From Agreia bicolorata (GTDB taxonomy: Bacteria; Actinomycetota; Actinomycetes; Actinomycetales; Microbacteriaceae), in NCBI RefSeq assembly GCF_000938265.1, contig NZ_JYFC01000004.1, forward strand, positions 1 to 64,000: 64,000 nt of DNA, given 5' to 3'. Below, one piece after another: positions 22,100 through 30,336 of this stretch. Position 1 is the stretch's first letter. Every line of letters starts with the position of its first letter. The translations under genes were made by a program, and so were the position numbers. Under the pieces are notes generated by a model. The model did not search any database, was not told where the DNA came from, and was given only the letters and a program-made list of their open reading frames with translations.

Positions 22100-24007
22100 A
22101 TGAGTATGCGAGGCGGCGGCGGCCATCGAGGTGGCGTGAGCGCCGGCGATGTAGGTCTGCAGAAAGAACTGAACAAGAGTGCGCCGAAGATCGACCACCT
22201 GCTGAGTCGCATCCTCTCGCTTTTCTCGCCCTACCGCACGCCGATCATCGGCACGATCGTGCTCGTGCTGCTCGGCGCGGGCCTCACGGTGATCCCGCCT
22301 CTTCTCACGCAGCGGGCGTTCGACGACGGTCTCTTCCCTTCTGCGGGCTCTTCGACAGGCGCAGGGGGCGATACGGGAGACGCAGGCTCGATCATCCAGG
22401 GCCCGAACCTGCCGGTGCTGGTCGAGATCGTCGGTCTTATGATCGTGATCTACATCGTGTCGAGCCTGCTGAGTGTCTGGCAGACCTACCTCACGGCGAA
22501 GGTCGGCAACAGCGTGATGGGCGCGCTTCGCGTGCGACTCTTCACGCACCTCGAGGCGATGGAACTGAGCTTCTTCACCAAGACGAAGACGGGCGTCATC
22601 CAGTCACGGCTGCAGAACGACGTTGGCGGCGTGGCCAGCGTGCTGACCAACACCATCTCGTCGATTCTCGGAAACACCGTCACGCTCATCGCGGCGGTCG
22701 TTGCCATGGTGCTGCTGAACTGGCAGCTCACCATCGTGGCCCTCGTGCTTATGCCCATCCTGGTTCTCGCGCAGCGCCGGGTGGGGCAGGTGCGCGCCCG
22801 CATCGCGACGAAGACCCAGGAATCGCTCTCAGACATGACAGCGATCACGCAGGAGACCCTGAGCGTGTCAGGCATTCTGCTCTCGAAGAGTTTCAATCGG
22901 CAGCAGACCGAGATCGCCCGCTACGCAGACGAGAATGCCACCCAGGTGCGGCTGCAGGTGAGTCAGCAGATGAGCGGCCAGTGGTTCTTCGCCATGGTCA
23001 ACATTTTTCTGTCGGCGATCCCGGCCATCGTCTACCTCGTTGCCGGATGGCTGCTCGTCGGCGGCGCGCCCGACATCACGGCCGGCACCATCGTGGCGTT
23101 CACCACGGTGCAGGCTCGATTGCTGTTCCCCCTTCTCGGACTCATGCGCGTGGCCCTCGACCTGCAGACCTCGAGCGCTCTGTTCGCCCGCATCTTCGAG
23201 TACCTCGACCTCACGCCGGCCATCGCCGACGCGCCGGATGCACGGTCGGTCGACACGACCCGCCTCGGTCGCGTCGAATTCGACGACGTCGTCTTTCGCT
23301 ACCCGGATGCCGAGGACGACTCTCGCCCGACGCTGAATGGGGTGTCATTCGTGATCGAGCCGGGGCAGTTCGCGGCCTTCGTCGGCCCTTCGGGCGCGGG
23401 CAAGACGACGGTGTCGTACCTCGTGCCGCGGTTCTACGAAGCGACGGGCGGCACCGTCCGCTTCGCCGACACAGACGTGCGCGAGCTCAGCCAGGACTCG
23501 CTCGTGGCGAATCTCGGAATCGTCAGCCAGGAGACCTACCTCTTTCACGCGACCATCGCCGAGAACCTGCGCTACGCGAGACCGGATGCGACGCAGGCCG
23601 AAATCGAGGACGCGGCGCGTCAGGCGAACATCCACGACCGCGTCATGAGCTTCCCCGCCGGATACGACACCGTGGTGGGGGAGCGGGGCTACCGGCTCTC
23701 CGGTGGCGAGAAGCAGCGCATTGCGATCGCCCGCGTTCTGCTGAAAGATCCTGCGGTGCTCATTCTCGACGAGGCGACCAGCGCCCTCGACACCATCTCG
23801 GAACGGGTCGTGCAGGCGGCGCTCGACACGGCATCCCGAGGTCGCACGACCATTGCGATCGCTCACCGGCTCTCGACGGTGCTGTCTGCCGACGTGATCT
23901 TCGTGATCGACGACGGCGAGGTGGTCGAGCGTGGAACTCATGCGGAGCTCATCGACGCCGGCGGTGTCTACTCGACGCTCTATGCGCAGCAGCGCGAAAT
24001 TTCGTAG
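22100..24007 (+). CDS. ABC exporter, fused membrane and ATPase domains
   Basis: This 635-residue half-transporter has an N-terminal type IV (exporter) membrane domain with six helices (residues 45-345) and a C-terminal nucleotide-binding domain. The motifs are Walker A GPSGAGKTT, Q-loop NLGIVSQETYLF, signature LSGGEKQR, Walker B VLILDEATSALD and H-loop IAHRLSTV. The first transmembrane pair is split by a Gly/Ser/Asp-rich loop (FPSAGSSTGAGGDTGDAG), an unusual extracellular insert. TAGGTT lies exactly 6 nt before the ATG and no Shine-Dalgarno is visible, so the mRNA may be leaderless. It probably works as a homodimer. Substrate unknown. Confidence 0.87.
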   Translation: MSMRGGGGHRGGVSAGDVGLQKELNKSAPKIDHLLSRILSLFSPYRTPIIGTIVLVLLGAGLTVIPPLLTQRAFDDGLFPSAGSSTGAGGDTGDAGSIIQGPNLPVLVEIVGLMIVIYIVSSLLSVWQTYLTAKVGNSVMGALRVRLFTHLEAMELSFFTKTKTGVIQSRLQNDVGGVASVLTNTISSILGNTVTLIAAVVAMVLLNWQLTIVALVLMPILVLAQRRVGQVRARIATKTQESLSDMTAITQETLSVSGILLSKSFNRQQTEIARYADENATQVRLQVSQQMSGQWFFAMVNIFLSAIPAIVYLVAGWLLVGGAPDITAGTIVAFTTVQARLLFPLLGLMRVALDLQTSSALFARIFEYLDLTPAIADAPDARSVDTTRLGRVEFDDVVFRYPDAEDDSRPTLNGVSFVIEPGQFAAFVGPSGAGKTTVSYLVPRFYEATGGTVRFADTDVRELSQDSLVANLGIVSQETYLFHATIAENLRYARPDATQAEIEDAARQANIHDRVMSFPAGYDTVVGERGYRLSGGEKQRIAIARVLLKDPAVLILDEATSALDTISERVVQAALDTASRGRTTIAIAHRLSTVLSADVIFVIDDGEVVERGTHAELIDAGGVYSTLYAQQREIS

Positions 24008-24089
24008 TGCACTGTGACGCGTGTGGCTAGAGTTGCACCCAGAGGGGCGGCAGTGGGGTAGCGCCTTACGTAACGGGGATCGGGGCGCT

Positions 24090-26267
24090 ATGTCAGGGGA
24101 CAGTTCTCTCTCGAGAGGGGCTCGAAGGCCCGGACGACTCGGTTCGTCGGCCGGAGCGTTCGTGCGGCGGGGGCTGAGCATTCAGTCGAAACTGCTGATC
24201 ATGCTGCTCGGCGTCAGCATAGGCTCGACGCTCGTGGTCGGGTACATCGGCTACACCTCGGGCACGGATGGCCTGCGGCAGGCCGAGTTCGATCGCATGA
24301 CCAACCTGCGCGAGGCGAAATCGGATGCCGTCGAGTCGCTCTTTTCGAACATCCGGAGCGGTCTGACCCTCGATTCGATCGGTGCGACGGGCAACCAGGC
24401 CGCGGTGGAATTCAGCGACGCGTTCGCACAGCTGCAGAGCCAGCCGATCGACCCGGCCCAGACCGCCGCGGTGGACGCGTACTACGACAACACCTTCATT
24501 CCTCTGCTCAACGAACGCTCCGGCTCGACGAGCGTCTCTGACGTGTTCGTTCCGCAGACGAGCGCAGAGACCTACCTGCAGAATCACTACACGGTTCCGT
24601 CGTCCGGGGATTTCGATGCAGCGGCTCTCGTTGACAACGCGGGCGACGGCAGCGCCTGGTCGGCTGTCAACGAGAAATACAACCCGTATTTTCGCGAGAT
24701 GGCCAAGCTCAATCAGTACGAGGATGCGCTGATCCTCGACACCAAGGGAAATATCGTCTACTCCGTTTACAAGGGAGTCGATCTCGGGTCCAACGTGAAT
24801 ACGGGCCCCTACAAGGGGTCGAACCTCGCCAGTGCCTACACTGCTGCTCTGAATTCGAACGTCGTCGACTTCGTGCAGATCACCGACTTCGAGCGCTATC
24901 AGCCGAGCCTCGCGGTGCCGACCGCGTGGGGAGTCTCGCCGATCGGTCAGAACGGTGATGTCGTCGGCGTCTTGGCCGTGCAGCTTCCCATCGCCTCGAT
25001 CAACGCCGTGATGACCGGCGACGAGCAGTGGAAGAGGGACGGCCTCGGCGACACGGGCGAGGCCTACATCGTCGGCTCCGACGACACGATGCGCTCGGTC
25101 TCGCGCCTGCTGATTGACGACCCGGAGCAGTATCGCGAGCGGGCCATCTCCGGCGGTCTGGCTCCTGACGTCGCGCAGCGCGCGGTCGATGTGAAGGGCA
25201 CGGTCGCTCTGCAAACCGTCGACACAGCGCCGGTGCGCGAGGCGCAGCAGGGCAAGACGGGGGTGATGGTCGCTCAGAGCTATCTGGGCCGTGAAACTCT
25301 CGCCGCCTATGGGCCGCTCGACATTCCCGGTCAGCAGTGGGTCATCGTGGCGAGCATCACCTCTGCTGAAGCGTTCGCGCCCGTGGCCGACTTCACCCGC
25401 AACCTCGTTCTCTCGATCGCGGTGCTGCTTGTGCTCGTCTCCTTGCTGTCGCTGCTTCTCGCTCAGGTGTTCGCCCGGCCGGTGAGGCGTCTCGTCGGAG
25501 CCGTGCGGCAGGTGGCAGGTGGTGATCTCGGTGTCGAGGTCACGACCAACACCCGAGACGAGTTCGGCGATCTCGCGCTGGCCTTCAACGACATGAGCCG
25601 CAGCCTCCAGGTGAAGCAGGCACTGATCGACGAGCAGCAGGCCGAGAACGACAAGATCCTGCACACGCTGATGCCCGAGTCTGTTGCCCGGCGCTATCGC
25701 GACGGCGATGAAACCATCGCCGAGGATCATCAGGATGTCTCGGTGCTGTTCGCGGACCTCGTCGGTTTCGACGACTTCGCCGCCGGTCTGGGTGCCGAGA
25801 AAGAACTCGCCCTGCTCAACGACCTCGTGCGCCAGTTCGACGAGACGGCGCAGGAGAAGGGCGTCGAGAAGGTGCGCACTCTGCGCGAGGGCTACCTGGC
25901 GAGCTGCGGGCTGATCGTTCCGAGGGTCGACAGCGCGCGCCGCACCGTGGACTTCGCTCTGGAGATGATCCGCATCGTCGAACGGTTCAACGCACAGCAC
26001 GAGGCGAACCTGTCGCTGCGCGTCGGCATCGACACAGGAACGGTGACCAGCGGACTCGTGGGACGATCGTCGATCGCCTACGACATGTGGGGCGACGCCG
26101 TGAACATCGCCAACCGGGTGCAGGCCCTCGCCGGCAAGCCCGGCGTCTTCATCAGCCAGAGAGTGCGCGGCAAGCTGGGCGAGTTGCCGAACCTGACCGA
26201 GGTGGGCACGATCGAGACGAAGGCCGGGCAGCAATCGGTCTGGCAGATCTCCACGCAGAGGGGATGA
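24090..26267 (+). CDS. Membrane class III nucleotide cyclase with Cache-like sensor and HAMP
   Basis: This 725-residue protein has a first helix (LLIMLLGVSIGSTLVVGYIGY, about residues 35-55), an extracellular sensor of about 370 residues and a second helix (LVLSIAVLLVLVSLLSLLLAQVF). The sensor includes DALILDTKGNIVYSVYKGVDLG and the later GEAYIVGSDDTMRSVSRLL, as in double-Cache folds. A HAMP domain and a class III cyclase domain follow. The first metal Asp is present (VLFADLVGFDD), as are the later D, N and R (YDMWGDAVNIANRVQ). The block expected to read K-T-x-G-D reads RTLREGYLASCG, so the base-binding Lys is Arg and the second metal Asp is Glu. It overlaps the channel gene by ATGA. Confidence 0.85.
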   Translation: MSGDSSLSRGARRPGRLGSSAGAFVRRGLSIQSKLLIMLLGVSIGSTLVVGYIGYTSGTDGLRQAEFDRMTNLREAKSDAVESLFSNIRSGLTLDSIGATGNQAAVEFSDAFAQLQSQPIDPAQTAAVDAYYDNTFIPLLNERSGSTSVSDVFVPQTSAETYLQNHYTVPSSGDFDAAALVDNAGDGSAWSAVNEKYNPYFREMAKLNQYEDALILDTKGNIVYSVYKGVDLGSNVNTGPYKGSNLASAYTAALNSNVVDFVQITDFERYQPSLAVPTAWGVSPIGQNGDVVGVLAVQLPIASINAVMTGDEQWKRDGLGDTGEAYIVGSDDTMRSVSRLLIDDPEQYRERAISGGLAPDVAQRAVDVKGTVALQTVDTAPVREAQQGKTGVMVAQSYLGRETLAAYGPLDIPGQQWVIVASITSAEAFAPVADFTRNLVLSIAVLLVLVSLLSLLLAQVFARPVRRLVGAVRQVAGGDLGVEVTTNTRDEFGDLALAFNDMSRSLQVKQALIDEQQAENDKILHTLMPESVARRYRDGDETIAEDHQDVSVLFADLVGFDDFAAGLGAEKELALLNDLVRQFDETAQEKGVEKVRTLREGYLASCGLIVPRVDSARRTVDFALEMIRIVERFNAQHEANLSLRVGIDTGTVTSGLVGRSSIAYDMWGDAVNIANRVQALAGKPGVFISQRVRGKLGELPNLTEVGTIETKAGQQSVWQISTQRG

Positions 26268-27697
26268 CGACAGCCGTGATCGATCTCTGGAAAGAGCCGT
26301 GGTTCGGCTGGGCCTTGGGCGTGGTCATTGCGTTGCCGGTTCTGCTCGTCGTTCTCACCGAGGTCTATGGCGCCCTGCAGAGACGCAACTCTCCAGCCGC
26401 CAAGCCGGTTCGCCTGCTCCGAAACTTCGTCCTTCCCGTGGCGGCCATCTTCGCGCTGCTCACCTTCGCGTCGGAGCAGAGCTTCGATCTGACGTGGGTG
26501 CGCGTCGTCGGCACCGTGCTCGGATTCCTGCTCATCCTGCTCGTTCTCTCCGCCTTCAATGTCGCCATCTTCGGTAACGCGCGCGAGGGCAGCTGGCGCG
26601 AGCGCCTGCCCTCCATCTTCATCACCCTCGCGCGGCTCGCGCTCATTCTCGTGGGTCTCGCCATCCTCTTCTCGTGGGTGTGGGGTGCGGATGTCGGGGG
26701 TCTCTTCGCGGCGCTGGGGGTGACATCCATCGTGATCGGCCTGGCGCTGCAGAACGCGGTGGGGTCGATCATCTCGGGCCTGCTTCTGCTCTTCGAGCAG
26801 CCGTTCAAACTCGGCGACTTTCTCGAGGTCGGGGCCGTTCGGGGCCGGGTCGTCGAGGTCAACTGGCGCTCGGTGCACATCGACACCGGCAACGGTATTC
26901 AGATCATGCCGAACTCCTCGCTCGCCGGTGGTTCGTTCACCAATCTGAGCCAGCCCGTCGATGGCTATATGGCCACCGTGCCGCTGACCTTCACGACCGA
27001 TGATGCGCCGCACGCGGTGGTGAACATGCTCGTCGAGACTGCGTCGGCGCTGCCGCAGCTCGACAGCGGCGCGAGGCCGACGGTGAGCTATGAGGGCAAG
27101 GCCGCATACACAGTGAGTCTTCCGGTGACGAATCCGGCGGCCGAGGGTGAGACCGTCTCGCTCTTTCTGGCATGGCTGTGGTACGCGGCGCGGCGTCACG
27201 ACCTGGGGCTCGACGGCGACACGACCGACCCGGTGAACACCCGAGAGAACGTGGTCGAGGCCCTCGGCTTTGCGGGTTCCGAGCTCGGTCTGCCGCAGGA
27301 GGATCTCGATGGCGTCGTGGATTCCTGTCGGATCGAGCAGTTCGGTGCGGGGGAGCTGCTGCAGAAGGTGGGGGTCGTTCCCGATTGCGTGCGCGTCGTT
27401 TTGAGCGGCGTTCTCGAGCTGTCAGTGCCGTACGAGACGGGCAGGCTGCGCATCGGTGTCGTCGAGCGCGGCGAGTTCATCGGGCAGGCCGCGCTCACAC
27501 GGCAGAAGACAACGACGGTGGTGAGCGCGGGCCGCCCGGTGACCGTGCTGCGTGTGCCCACCTCGGTCGTCGACGAGATGGTGCGCAGGCATCCGTCGCT
27601 CGCTCGCCGGATCGGCCAGACGCTCGACAACCGGCGCGCTCTTGCAGAGGCGGCACTCGTGGCCGCTCAGGCCTCGTCGGGCACGATAGCCATCTGA
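26264..27697 (+). CDS. MscS-family channel with C-terminal cyclic-nucleotide-binding-like domain
   Basis: This 477-residue inner-membrane protein has about four to five helices. The MscS pore helix and beta domain are recognised by ALGVTSIVIGLALQNAVGSIISGLLLLFEQPFKLGDFLEVG and VVEVNWRSVHIDTGNGIQIMPNSSLAGGSFTN (about residues 145-235). Residues about 345-460 resemble a cNMP-binding domain (FGAGELLQKVGVVPDCVRVVLSGVLELSV, RGEFIGQAALTRQKTTTVVSAG). In the phosphate-binding cassette the usual Glu is Gln and the usual Arg seems replaced by Thr. Co-translation with the cyclase (ATGA overlap) suggests the cyclase product gates the channel, as in bacterial cyclic-nucleotide-gated (bCNG) MscS relatives. 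The ligand is uncertain. Confidence 0.83.
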   Translation: MTTAVIDLWKEPWFGWALGVVIALPVLLVVLTEVYGALQRRNSPAAKPVRLLRNFVLPVAAIFALLTFASEQSFDLTWVRVVGTVLGFLLILLVLSAFNVAIFGNAREGSWRERLPSIFITLARLALILVGLAILFSWVWGADVGGLFAALGVTSIVIGLALQNAVGSIISGLLLLFEQPFKLGDFLEVGAVRGRVVEVNWRSVHIDTGNGIQIMPNSSLAGGSFTNLSQPVDGYMATVPLTFTTDDAPHAVVNMLVETASALPQLDSGARPTVSYEGKAAYTVSLPVTNPAAEGETVSLFLAWLWYAARRHDLGLDGDTTDPVNTRENVVEALGFAGSELGLPQEDLDGVVDSCRIEQFGAGELLQKVGVVPDCVRVVLSGVLELSVPYETGRLRIGVVERGEFIGQAALTRQKTTTVVSAGRPVTVLRVPTSVVDEMVRRHPSLARRIGQTLDNRRALAEAALVAAQASSGTIAI

Positions 27698-27751
27698 TGC
27701 TTCGGCTGCCTGCGGAGACTGGCCGACAGGTGTCGGTGATAGTTTCGTGAG

Positions 27752-29116
27752 GTGAAATACGCGAACACGGTCATCGATCTCGTGGGCAACACGCCCCTCG
27801 TCAAACTCAACAGCGTCACCGAGGGCATCCAAGCCACGGTGCTCGCAAAGATCGAGTATCTGAACCCCGGCGGCTCGTCGAAAGACCGCATCGCGACGCG
27901 CATCATCGACGCCGCCGAGCGTGAGGGCAAGTTGAAGCCGGGCGGCACGATCGTCGAGCCCACCTCGGGCAACACCGGCATCGGTCTCGCTCTCGTGGCT
28001 CAGCAGCGCGGCTACCGTTGCGTGTTCGTGCTTCCCGACAAAGTCGGCGAAGACAAGCGCAACGTGCTCACCGCCTACGGCGCAGAGATCGTGGTGACGC
28101 CCACATCGGTCGCGCCGGAAGACCCCAACTCCTATTACTCGGTCTCCGATCGGCTCGCCCGCGAGATTCCCGGAGCGTTCAAGCCGAACCAGTACTCCAA
28201 CCCCAACGGGCCTCTCAGCCACTACGAGACGACCGGCCCCGAGATCTGGGCAGACACCGAGGGCAAGATCACGCACTTCGTGGCCGGCGTGGGAACAGGC
28301 GGAACCATCTCGGGCGTCGGACGCTACCTCAAAGAGGTGTCGGGCGGCGAGGTCACGATCATCGGGGCCGACCCCGAGGGCTCGGTCTACTCTGGCGGAA
28401 CCGGCAGGCCGTATCTGGTCGAGGGCGTGGGAGAGGACTTCTGGCCCGAAGCCTACGATGCCAGCGTGGTCGACGAGATCATCGCCGCGAGCGACGCCGA
28501 GTCGTTCGCGCTCACCCGTCGGCTCGCGCGCGAAGAGGGCCTGCTCGTCGGCGGATCCTCGGGGCTTGCGGTTGCTGCGGCCCTCAAGGCCGCCGCGAAG
28601 CTCGGCCCAGACGATGTCGTCGTTGTGCTCCTCCCAGACGGCGGCCGCGGGTATCTCGGCAAGATCTTCAACGACAAGTGGATGCGCAGCTACGGTTTCG
28701 CAGACGCCACCGACGAGGCCACGGTCGGCGACATCCTGAAATCGAAGACCGGCGGTCTGCCCGCGCTCGTGCACGCACACCCCAGCGACACCGTGCGCGA
28801 CGCCATTCAGATCATGACGAGCTACGGCGTCTCGCAGCTGCCGATGCTCTCGGCCGAGCCGCCCGTGGTGATGGGCGAGGTCACGGGCTCGCTCAACGAG
28901 CAGAGCCTGCTCGAAGAGGTCTTCTCAGGGCGCGCCGAGATGACCGATCACGTCGGGGCCTTCGCCAGCGATCCTCTGCCGCTCATCGGCATCCACGAGT
29001 CTGTCGCCTCGGCGCGACGTTTTCTCGGCAAGGCGGGCGCCCTGCTGGTGACCGACGATGGCAAGCCCGTCGCCGTGATCACCAGGCACGACCTGCTCAC
29101 CTTCCTCAGCGAATAG
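27752..29116 (+). CDS. cbs: Cystathionine beta-synthase
   Basis: This 454-residue PLP enzyme condenses serine and homocysteine to cystathionine. The PLP lysine is in GGSSKDRIA (about residue 44), the phosphate loop is VGTGGTISGVGRY and the substrate loop TSGNTGIGLAL. Residues about 335-450 form a pair of CBS (Bateman) domains (VHAHPSDTVRDAIQIMTSYGVSQLPML; ALLVTDDGKPVAVITRHDLL), which may bind adenosyl ligands. The start is a GTG with TAGTTT exactly 6 nt upstream and no Shine-Dalgarno (leaderless candidate). The next gene, 62 bp on, encodes the second step of reverse transsulfuration. Confidence 0.92.
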   Translation: MKYANTVIDLVGNTPLVKLNSVTEGIQATVLAKIEYLNPGGSSKDRIATRIIDAAEREGKLKPGGTIVEPTSGNTGIGLALVAQQRGYRCVFVLPDKVGEDKRNVLTAYGAEIVVTPTSVAPEDPNSYYSVSDRLAREIPGAFKPNQYSNPNGPLSHYETTGPEIWADTEGKITHFVAGVGTGGTISGVGRYLKEVSGGEVTIIGADPEGSVYSGGTGRPYLVEGVGEDFWPEAYDASVVDEIIAASDAESFALTRRLAREEGLLVGGSSGLAVAAALKAAAKLGPDDVVVVLLPDGGRGYLGKIFNDKWMRSYGFADATDEATVGDILKSKTGGLPALVHAHPSDTVRDAIQIMTSYGVSQLPMLSAEPPVVMGEVTGSLNEQSLLEEVFSGRAEMTDHVGAFASDPLPLIGIHESVASARRFLGKAGALLVTDDGKPVAVITRHDLLTFLSE

Positions 29117-29178: not shown

Positions 29179-30336
29179 ATGCCCCAGAAAAAGCAGCAGT
29201 TCGAGACCGTCGCCGTTCACGCCGGGCAGGAGTTCGACCCGACGACCGGCGCGATCATTCCGCCGATCTACCAGACGTCGACCTTCGTGCAAGACGGCAT
29301 CGGCGGTTTCCGTGGCGGCTACGAGTACGCCCGAGGCGGCAACCCCACCCGCTCGTCGCTCGAGACGCTGGTCGCGGCCCTCGAGGGTGCGAAGCACGGG
29401 CTGTCGTTCTCGTCGGGTCTCGCTGCTGAAGACGCGCTGCTGCGCGCCGTGCTCGAACCCGGCGACCACGTGGTGCTCGGCAACGACGTCTATGGCGGAA
29501 CGCACCGCCTGATCAATCGCATCTTCGGCCGCTGGGGTGTCGAGAACGACACCGTCGAGATGATGAACCTGCAGGCCGTCGCCAAGGCGGTCATCCCGGG
29601 CAAGACAAAGGTGCTCTGGCTCGAGACTCCGTCGAATCCGTTGATGAAGGTCAGCGATGTCGCCGAGCTGGCCGAGATCGGCCATGCCGCCGGCGCCCTG
29701 GTCGTCGTCGACAACACCTTCGCGTCGCCCTACCTCCAGCAGCCGTTGGCGCTCGGCGCCGATGTCGTTGTGCACTCGACCACCAAGTACCTGGGCGGCC
29801 ACTCCGATGTTCTCGGTGGCGCGCTCGTGCTCGACGACGACGAGTTGCACGAGAAGGTGCGCTTTCAGCAGTTCGCGGCCGGCGCGGTGTCTGGCCCGAT
29901 GGATGCCTGGCTCACGGTTCGAGGAATCAAGACTCTCGCCGTGCGCATGGAACGCCACAGCGACAACGCGCAGAAGATCGCGGAGTACCTCGTGGGGCAC
30001 CCTGCTATCGAGACCGTGTTCTATCCGGGGCTCGAATCGCACCCCGGACACGAGCTCGCGAAGAGACAGATGCGTCGCCCGGGTGGAATGCTCTCACTCG
30101 CCTTCAAGGCCGGACCGAAGGCGGCGCGCAAGTTCGCCGAGTCGACCAAGCTGTTCTCGCTCGCCGAGTCGCTGGGAGGCGTCGAGTCGCTCGTGGGCTA
30201 CCCGACCGAGATGACACACGCATCGGTCAAGGGAACGGCGCTCGAGGTTCCCGAGAACCTCATCCGTCTCTCCGTTGGCATCGAGGGCGCAGACGACCTG
30301 CTCGCCGACATCGAACAGGCGCTGCCCAAGAAGTAG
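29179..30336 (+). CDS. Cystathionine gamma-synthase / gamma-lyase
   Basis: This 385-residue Cys/Met-metabolism PLP enzyme has YEYARGGNPTR, SSGLAAEDA (phosphate binding), VVVDNTFASPYLQQPL and the PLP lysine in VVHSTTKYLGGHSDVLGGAL. The C-terminal SLGGVESLVGYPTEMTHAS is typical. Sequence alone does not separate gamma-synthase (metB) from gamma-lyase (mccB/cth). Its place behind cystathionine beta-synthase favours the lyase direction, making cysteine from cystathionine, though annotation as synthase is common. The ATG at 29179 is chosen because homology begins there. Confidence 0.88.
   Translation: MPQKKQQFETVAVHAGQEFDPTTGAIIPPIYQTSTFVQDGIGGFRGGYEYARGGNPTRSSLETLVAALEGAKHGLSFSSGLAAEDALLRAVLEPGDHVVLGNDVYGGTHRLINRIFGRWGVENDTVEMMNLQAVAKAVIPGKTKVLWLETPSNPLMKVSDVAELAEIGHAAGALVVVDNTFASPYLQQPLALGADVVVHSTTKYLGGHSDVLGGALVLDDDELHEKVRFQQFAAGAVSGPMDAWLTVRGIKTLAVRMERHSDNAQKIAEYLVGHPAIETVFYPGLESHPGHELAKRQMRRPGGMLSLAFKAGPKAARKFAESTKLFSLAESLGGVESLVGYPTEMTHASVKGTALEVPENLIRLSVGIEGADDLLADIEQALPKK

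Follow-up and report, generated by a model that had tools for sequence, protein, structure and literature searches.

A Cache-HAMP receptor gene encoding a probable pseudocyclase, paired with an MscS-type channel gene in Agreia bicolorata and other actinobacteria

What is the role of a class III cyclase whose gene overlaps that of a channel with a cyclic nucleotide monophosphate (cNMP)-binding-like domain, if both the synthesis site and the binding site depart from consensus? The question is raised by a pair of genes in Agreia bicolorata (Microbacteriaceae), within a stretch of 64,000 nucleotides (positions 1 to 64,000 of contig NZ_JYFC01000004.1, assembly GCF_000938265.1) that is referred to here as the window. 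A receptor with Cache, HAMP and class III cyclase-homology domains is encoded there directly upstream of an MscS-type channel. The original prediction, derived from the sequence alone, was that sensor, second messenger and gated channel form a self-contained circuit, possibly using an unusual nucleotide or binding mode. The comparative analysis described below retains the idea of a single unit, as the two genes travel together and are the only such set in 11 out of 17 genomes checked, and does not support a messenger of an unusual kind, as the second metal position of the cyclase varies with no fixed alternative. We propose instead, with a probability of roughly 0.55, that a pseudocyclase membrane receptor, possibly still capable of binding a nucleotide, gates a dedicated MscS channel by direct contact; a messenger circuit appears unlikely.

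Domain architecture and genomic pairing

The cyclase open reading frame (ORF) matches the Pfam families Guanylate_cyc (2.6e-38) and HAMP (5.5e-14) above cutoff, and its PF00211 score of 131.9 bits (cutoff 21.9) places it among class III cyclases by fold and sequence; the dCache_1 match, at 25 bits, is below its cutoff of 45. The channel ORF matches MS_channel_2nd (1.1e-18) and cNMP_binding (9.4e-9), both above cutoff, and combines an MscS pore, a beta domain and a C-terminal cNMP fold, which is the architecture of bCNG channels (MscS channels with a cNMP domain). The ATGA overlap of a Cache/HAMP cyclase gene with an MscS-cNMP channel gene, as originally described, is borne out by these ORFs and domains. 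AlphaFold2 models computed from family alignments of 70 (cyclase) and 72 (channel) sequences had a mean pLDDT of 86.6 and 86.4, respectively. In Foldseek searches of the PDB the cyclase model groups with cyclases of the adenylyl and guanylyl type (for 5o5l, TM 0.80 normalized by target length), and the window cyclase matches human AC9 at 5e-48. The channel model retrieves MscS, MscK and YnaI, with CRP-type proteins ranked lower and no title of an MscS channel with a cNMP domain among the 50 PDB rows listed. The long helices that precede its beta domain outnumber the three of E. coli MscS.

The pairing was followed across actinobacteria, as the original prediction had suggested. Within the family Microbacteriaceae, the channel is present in 20 out of 150 genomes, the window's own included (14 out of 85 genera), and in all 20 of them the cyclase lies just upstream on the same strand. 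Further loci were taken from a contig search (the best 80 of 402 candidates) and from a scan of the phylum (14 loci). The cyclase is adjacent, upstream and on the same strand in 112 of the 113 fetched loci (4 of which duplicate others), the single exception, L057, being a contig that begins 51 bases before the match. The spacing between the genes ranges from -16 to +20 bp in 104/104 loci measured (the start codon giving -4 or -1 was preferred where present, otherwise the one closest to the aligned start). A scan of the class yielded matches at 1e-30 in 36 of 394 genomes, full-length matches being confined to Microbacteriaceae and to one genus (g92) of family f6. This genus is probably Mycobacterium, and the cyclase-channel family does include one locus, L116, from a named Mycobacterium. 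The pair recurs in other actinobacterial classes, as the phylum scan revealed.

Homologs of the upstream neighbor (an ABC transporter) were found in 26, and of the downstream neighbor (cysteine-synthase-like) in 23, of 68 long loci, so that the pair often occupies the same chromosomal place. Pairwise protein distances of the cyclase and of the channel are correlated over 101 loci (r = 0.947), although co-inheritance alone can produce such a correlation. One genome (G531) carries two channel copies (L157 and L158), each with a cyclase upstream, and two channel copies each were seen in genomes G918 and G813 of the class scan.

Residue losses in both partners

Catalysis by class III cyclases relies on two metal-binding Asp residues, a Lys/Asp pair contacting the base, and an Asn and an Arg stabilizing the transition state. 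By alignment to human AC9, positions 556, 596, 600, 665, 672 and 676 of the receptor were assigned to this set, with roles that we assume to be those of the aligned residues. The motif FADLVGF carries Asp556, RTLREGY puts Arg596 at the Lys position and Glu600 at the position of the second metal Asp, and YDMWGDAVNIANRVQ carries Asp665, Asn672 and Arg676, in agreement with the residues named in the original prediction.

Among 106 aligned cyclases of this family (window included), only the base-contact position 665 is Asp throughout (106/106). The first metal position, 556, is split between D (53) and E (52), with one gap, and position 596 is R in 105 and H in 1. The most diverse is the second metal position, 600, with G 45, E 20, N 13, Q 8, S 7, A 5, T 3, R 3 and only D 2. 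Position 672 holds N 55, S 43, T 6 and D 2, and position 676 R 84, Q 18, A 3 and K 1; thus Asp556, Asn672 and Arg676, all intact in the window copy, are variable among its orthologs. Of 17 extra cyclases, three (L178, L179, L181) did not differ, within the region compared, from rows counted before, and the 14 added ones (R 12, H 2 at position 596, no Asp at 600) bring the total to 120 distinct proteins. Across these 120 the base-contact position 596 is Arg in 117 and His in 3, Asp occurs at 600 in 2, and the full set (Asp, Lys, Asp, Asp, Asn, Arg) occurs in none (0/106 and 0/14). When 155 positions (residues 546-700) were ranked by entropy, position 600 came 139th, while 596, 612 and 665 ranked 23rd, 7th and 15th. 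The alignment thus suggests a second metal site that has no fixed substitute across the family, as if it were unconstrained. Positions 612 and 614 are invariant (106/106). The Arg at 612 presumably matches the triphosphate contact of mammalian cyclases, and binding of a nucleoside triphosphate (NTP) by the cyclase-homology domain may therefore persist.

The channel shows a comparable departure in the phosphate-binding cassette GEFIGQAALTRQKTTTVV, where alignment places Gln408 at the expected Glu and Thr417 at the Arg position; the window channel therefore has neither of the two contacts expected of a bCNG channel, as had been noted before. In 107 channel sequences (one of them an odd row contributed by L051, which is apparently frameshifted) position 408 is Q 63, L 26, H 9, I 3, V 3, S 2 and A 1, with Glu in 0/107, and Arg is found at position 417 in 4/107. 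What is kept instead is an LTR(E/Q) motif, with Arg413 in 102/107. In the portion of PMC11224242 consulted, the cassette Gly-Glu and Arg are described as highly conserved among proteins with a cyclic nucleotide-binding domain (CNBD). The earlier statement that the synthesis site and the binding site have both drifted holds for each side throughout the family sampled. The anticipated co-occurrence of the REGY and GQAAL variants failed: cyclases with Glu or Asp at 600 are paired with channels having Gln (9), Leu (7), His (3) or Ile (3) at 408, those with Gly at 600 with Gln (37), His (5), Leu (2) or Ser (1), and the letters of the two positions do not track.

Nine class III cyclase proteins that do not belong to the pair, those whose DNA was available for comparison, served as a control. 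Both metal Asp residues are kept in 9/9 (in L238, within the first of its two domains), and six of the nine have both metal Asp together with Asn and Arg; the frames of these six were selected with a pattern calling for the Asn and the first metal Asp, a choice that favored intact cyclases, and the other three were aligned. Two of the nine are devoid of the Asn: in L236 the two metal Asp and the Arg are present, with Asn replaced by His and Lys by Arg, and L239 keeps the same residues with Asn replaced by Gly and Lys by Gln. In L231 the metal Asp, Asn and Arg are intact with Arg at the Lys position. Since Asp is present at the second metal position in 9/9 controls versus 2/120 family members, loss of this site is, as judged from the alignments, the family-specific trait, and loss of Lys or Asn alone is not special. 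The two domains of L238 (genome G489) look complementary within a single protein, the first having both metal Asp and the Lys, the second the Asn and Arg.

Of 25 Microbacteriaceae genomes shown to bear the pair, the window's own excluded, 17 were assessed for other parts of cyclic nucleotide signaling. No PF00211 match besides the pair was found in 15/17; genomes G538 and G223 hold 14 and 19 such matches. The channel domain is the sole above-cutoff PF00027 match in 11/17, all within the former 15, and in these 11 the pair comprises the sole class III cyclase and the sole above-cutoff cNMP domain. The extra cNMP domains of G041, G138 and G075, inspected by eye, have the cassette Glu and no Arg at the usual place; the same holds for L247 (genome G489, also by eye), a cNMP-type domain fused to a thioredoxin-reductase-like protein. 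Class IV CYTH (PF01928) matches, a candidate alternative source of cAMP, were detected in 6 of 16 genomes searched. On another contig, the window's own genome encodes a canonical cyclase in addition to the paired one and, about 2 kb from it, a cNMP-domain protein within a frame of 232 residues.

Both genes are under purifying selection. Compared with two Agreia relatives, the cyclase domain has a dN/dS of 0.057 and the cNMP domain one of 0.13, while the values of the channel pore and beta region are 0.054 and 0.062.

A distant branch in other actinobacterial classes (L162-L164, extended L170-L172) has the order cyclase, channel, cyclase in one direction. In L162-L164 the first cyclase keeps the Lys, and the second metal Asp in 2/3, but in all three loci it is devoid of the first metal Asp as well as of the Asn and Arg; the second cyclase has lost nearly all catalytic residues, and the channel has no cassette Glu. 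Judged by these residues, two degenerate cyclases flanking one channel are hard to explain by catalysis.

A proposed direct relay and its alternatives

A mechanism that would fit these observations is as follows. The Cache domain would sense an extracellular cue, and HAMP would relay it to the cyclase-homology domain, a putative pseudoenzyme with the fold and probably an NTP-binding pocket kept and two-metal catalysis lost. The pseudocyclase would then move the cytoplasmic part of the channel, whose cNMP domain appears to have lost the standard cyclic-nucleotide contacts, by direct contact, causing the pore to open or close; the gating would perhaps be biased by an NTP, be it ATP or a different one, occupying the former active site. 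In a wider form, which we put forward tentatively and a little short of even odds, the pair would represent a family of sensor-gated channels where both halves of a cyclic-nucleotide circuit have turned into protein-contact parts and an NTP-binding pseudocyclase without turnover gates MscS through the former cNMP domain. In the distant branch two pseudocyclases may jointly gate one channel, and at least one annotated mycobacterial adenylyl cyclase would be a channel receptor rather than an enzyme.

Several points weigh against a relay by direct contact. The window copy belongs to the least degenerate ones, with two changes in the six residues (Lys to Arg, Asp to Glu), so that residual cyclase activity is possible in this copy. 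The retained base and phosphate contacts could signal turnover of a substrate. Replacement of Lys by Arg and loss of Asn are found in controls that keep the metal Asp (L231, L236, L239), and the channel of L164 has an Arg possibly at the usual cassette place. A covariation analysis, which had little power (Neff ~60), gave no excess of pairs between the cyclase domain and the cNMP domain (3 of the top 50 versus 4.0 expected, 8 of 100 versus 8.1, 18 of 200 versus 16.1). An excess was seen for pairs linking the cyclase or HAMP part with membrane helices of the channel (12 and 11 of 50 versus 3.3 and 2.3 expected) and was indistinguishable from clade signal. An apparent natural fusion of cyclase and channel in L119 (2718-6419, Leifsonia aquatica) was rejected, as the normal cyclase tail and stop are present in the other frame, which points to a frameshift in the assembly.

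The alternative that survives best, though we consider it unlikely, is a private messenger circuit, in which the cyclase would make a non-standard or ordinary cyclic nucleotide by means of an altered site and the altered channel pocket would read the product. It would account for the near-universal adjacency of a cyclase to a cNMP-domain effector (112/113 loci) and for the genomes in which the pair is the only such set (11/17), and also for the retention of Arg596, Arg612 and Asp665 along with an acidic residue in the first metal position; the conserved LTR(E/Q) motif might then contact the ligand. However, a new specificity should fix new residues rather than relax catalytic ones, and this argues against an altered messenger: the second metal position is occupied by nine different residues, and Asn672 and Arg676 vary too. 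The cassette Glu is absent throughout, and the variant letters of the two proteins do not track.

A further step down in probability is the view that the two products are co-transcribed but work separately, the channel as a plain mechanosensitive valve, with the receptor acting elsewhere or only scaffolding the channel. The strongest constraint on the channel does fall on its pore and beta region, and no covariation was found between the cyclase and cNMP domains. Opposed to this are the tight spacing in every locus measured, the distance correlation (with the reservation on co-inheritance made above) and the recurrence of the pair in other actinobacterial classes.

An ordinary cAMP circuit, with the cyclase making enough cAMP and the channel binding it, as in the bCNG idea, seems very improbable. 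The folds match, and Rv2435c and MSMEG_3578, discussed below, are counted as adenylyl cyclases in the portions of PMC4822843 and PMC7739888 consulted. Against it stand the lack of a canonical set in any of the 120 cyclases and of the cassette Glu in any of the 107 channels. In addition, 11 of the 15 genomes with the pair as sole PF00211 match have no other above-cutoff cNMP domain, and in three of the remaining four (G041, G138, G075) the extra domains have the Glu without an Arg at the usual place. Least probable of all is a heterodimer of the degenerate cyclase with another, active class III cyclase: such enzymes act as dimers with complementary residues, L238 shows a split of this kind inside one protein, G538 and G223 have numerous further PF00211 matches and the distant loci carry two cyclases, but 15 of the 17 genomes have no further PF00211 match and the second cyclase of the distant loci, being even more degenerate, does not complement the first.

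Relation to known systems and features of the window

To judge from their numbering, Rv2435c and Rv2434c of M. tuberculosis are probably a neighboring pair of the same design, as the original prediction had it. None of 396 genomes in the genus to which G223 belongs contained a 20-base pattern applied as a check on the Rv2435c/Rv2434c ortholog group. In the portions of the literature consulted, Rv2435c figures as an adenylate cyclase that has a double Cache domain and takes part in the cAMP network (PMC4822843), which makes it similar to the window receptor as a double-Cache class III cyclase. MSMEG_3578 of M. smegmatis is paired there with Rv2435 (PMC3961136) and listed among eight adenylyl cyclases (PMC7739888). 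Rv2434c is described as a conserved membrane protein, "possibly cyclic glycine-binding", in cAMP signaling (PMC11205783). The consulted portion of PMC3961136 counts Rv1359 among five M. tuberculosis cyclases that are annotated but had not been demonstrated to be active, and does not name Rv2435c there as one. Translated in one frame, the MSMEG_3578 primers of the same paper give IVNKLV and LHNGYL. These are motifs of the window family; they fit the f6 orthologs and place Asn at the second metal position. In contrast to the reading preferred here, published work assigns both Rv2435c and MSMEG_3578 to the adenylyl cyclases of the cAMP network (PMC4822843, PMC7739888). No report of family-wide activity loss or of direct gating was recognized in the literature searched; prior mention of the pair itself is likely, as a 2004 survey (PMC2447327) holds the names Rv2435c and Rv2434c.

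The window cyclase resembles mammalian and Rv1625c-type class III adenylyl cyclases in fold and sequence family, and differs from them in that no sampled member of its family has the full catalytic set. Likewise, the channel shares with bCNG channels the MscS pore and the C-terminal cNMP-type domain, yet its family is devoid of the cassette Glu, has the Arg in only 4/107, and is tied to the gene of a degenerate cyclase receptor. For the channel, the nearest parallel in terms of working, rather than kinship, is offered by the KCNH channels (hERG, EAG, ELK), where, according to the consulted portion of PMC7515569, the cNMP-like domain binds a peptide from within its own chain and contacts a PAS domain, and not a cyclic nucleotide. 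Unlike the window channel, these are voltage-gated K channels, with the PAS partner within the same protein.

Pycsar systems are similar in having a class III cyclase gene adjoin that of a CNBD effector. PADLOC models of PycC matched at 3.2e-8 or weaker, as they may match other class III domains, and this assignment was rejected on residues. PycC proteins have catalytic Asp residues and PycTIR keeps Gly-Glu and Arg (consulted portion of PMC11224242), whereas the second Asp is lost in 104/106 family cyclases and the cassette Gly-Glu and Arg of PycTM and PycTIR is lacking in the channel.

If the proposed relay is correct, a conserved bacterial receptor-channel pair would have dropped its second messenger and kept both domains for direct signaling. 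At least one protein would leave the list of mycobacterial adenylyl cyclases, and the pair would offer a simple system for gating of MscS-type channels by an external cue other than membrane tension.

Table 1. Features of the cyclase-channel locus, with positions counted from the first letter of the window
Feature	Positions	Strand	Details and basis
Receptor gene (probable pseudocyclase) with Cache, HAMP and class III cyclase-homology domains	24090..26267	+	725 aa; Pfam, model, pair in relatives
Double-Cache-like sensor, predicted extracellular, ~residues 61-430	24270..25379	+	Pfam dCache_1 below cutoff; helix/strand pattern of the model
HAMP domain, residues 456-507	25455..25610	+	Pfam
Cyclase-homology (catalytic-fold) domain, residues 544-720	25719..26249	+	Pfam, model
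Asp556, first metal position	25755..25757	+	D 53, E 52, gap 1 among 106
Arg596 (Lys position) to Glu600 (second metal Asp position)	25875..25889	+	106-row alignment
Asp665, base-contact position	26082..26084	+	D in 106/106
ATGA overlap, cyclase stop / channel start	26264..26267	+	ORFs
MscS-type channel gene with C-terminal cNMP-like domain	26264..27697	+	477 aa; five long predicted helices precede the beta domain
MscS beta domain, residues 165-229	26756..26950	+	Pfam
cNMP-binding-like domain, residues 358-443	27335..27592	+	Pfam, alignment
Degenerate phosphate-binding cassette, residues 403-422	27470..27529	+	Family motif G-x-x-A-L-T-R-(E/Q)

A scan of positions 23950-27800 of the window gave no terminator-like site and a single promoter-like site, located inside the channel gene (0.4 expected by chance). 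Further downstream, the translations suggest a cysteine-synthase/cystathionine-beta-synthase-like gene (27752-29116) followed by a cystathionine gamma-synthase/lyase-like gene (29179-30336).

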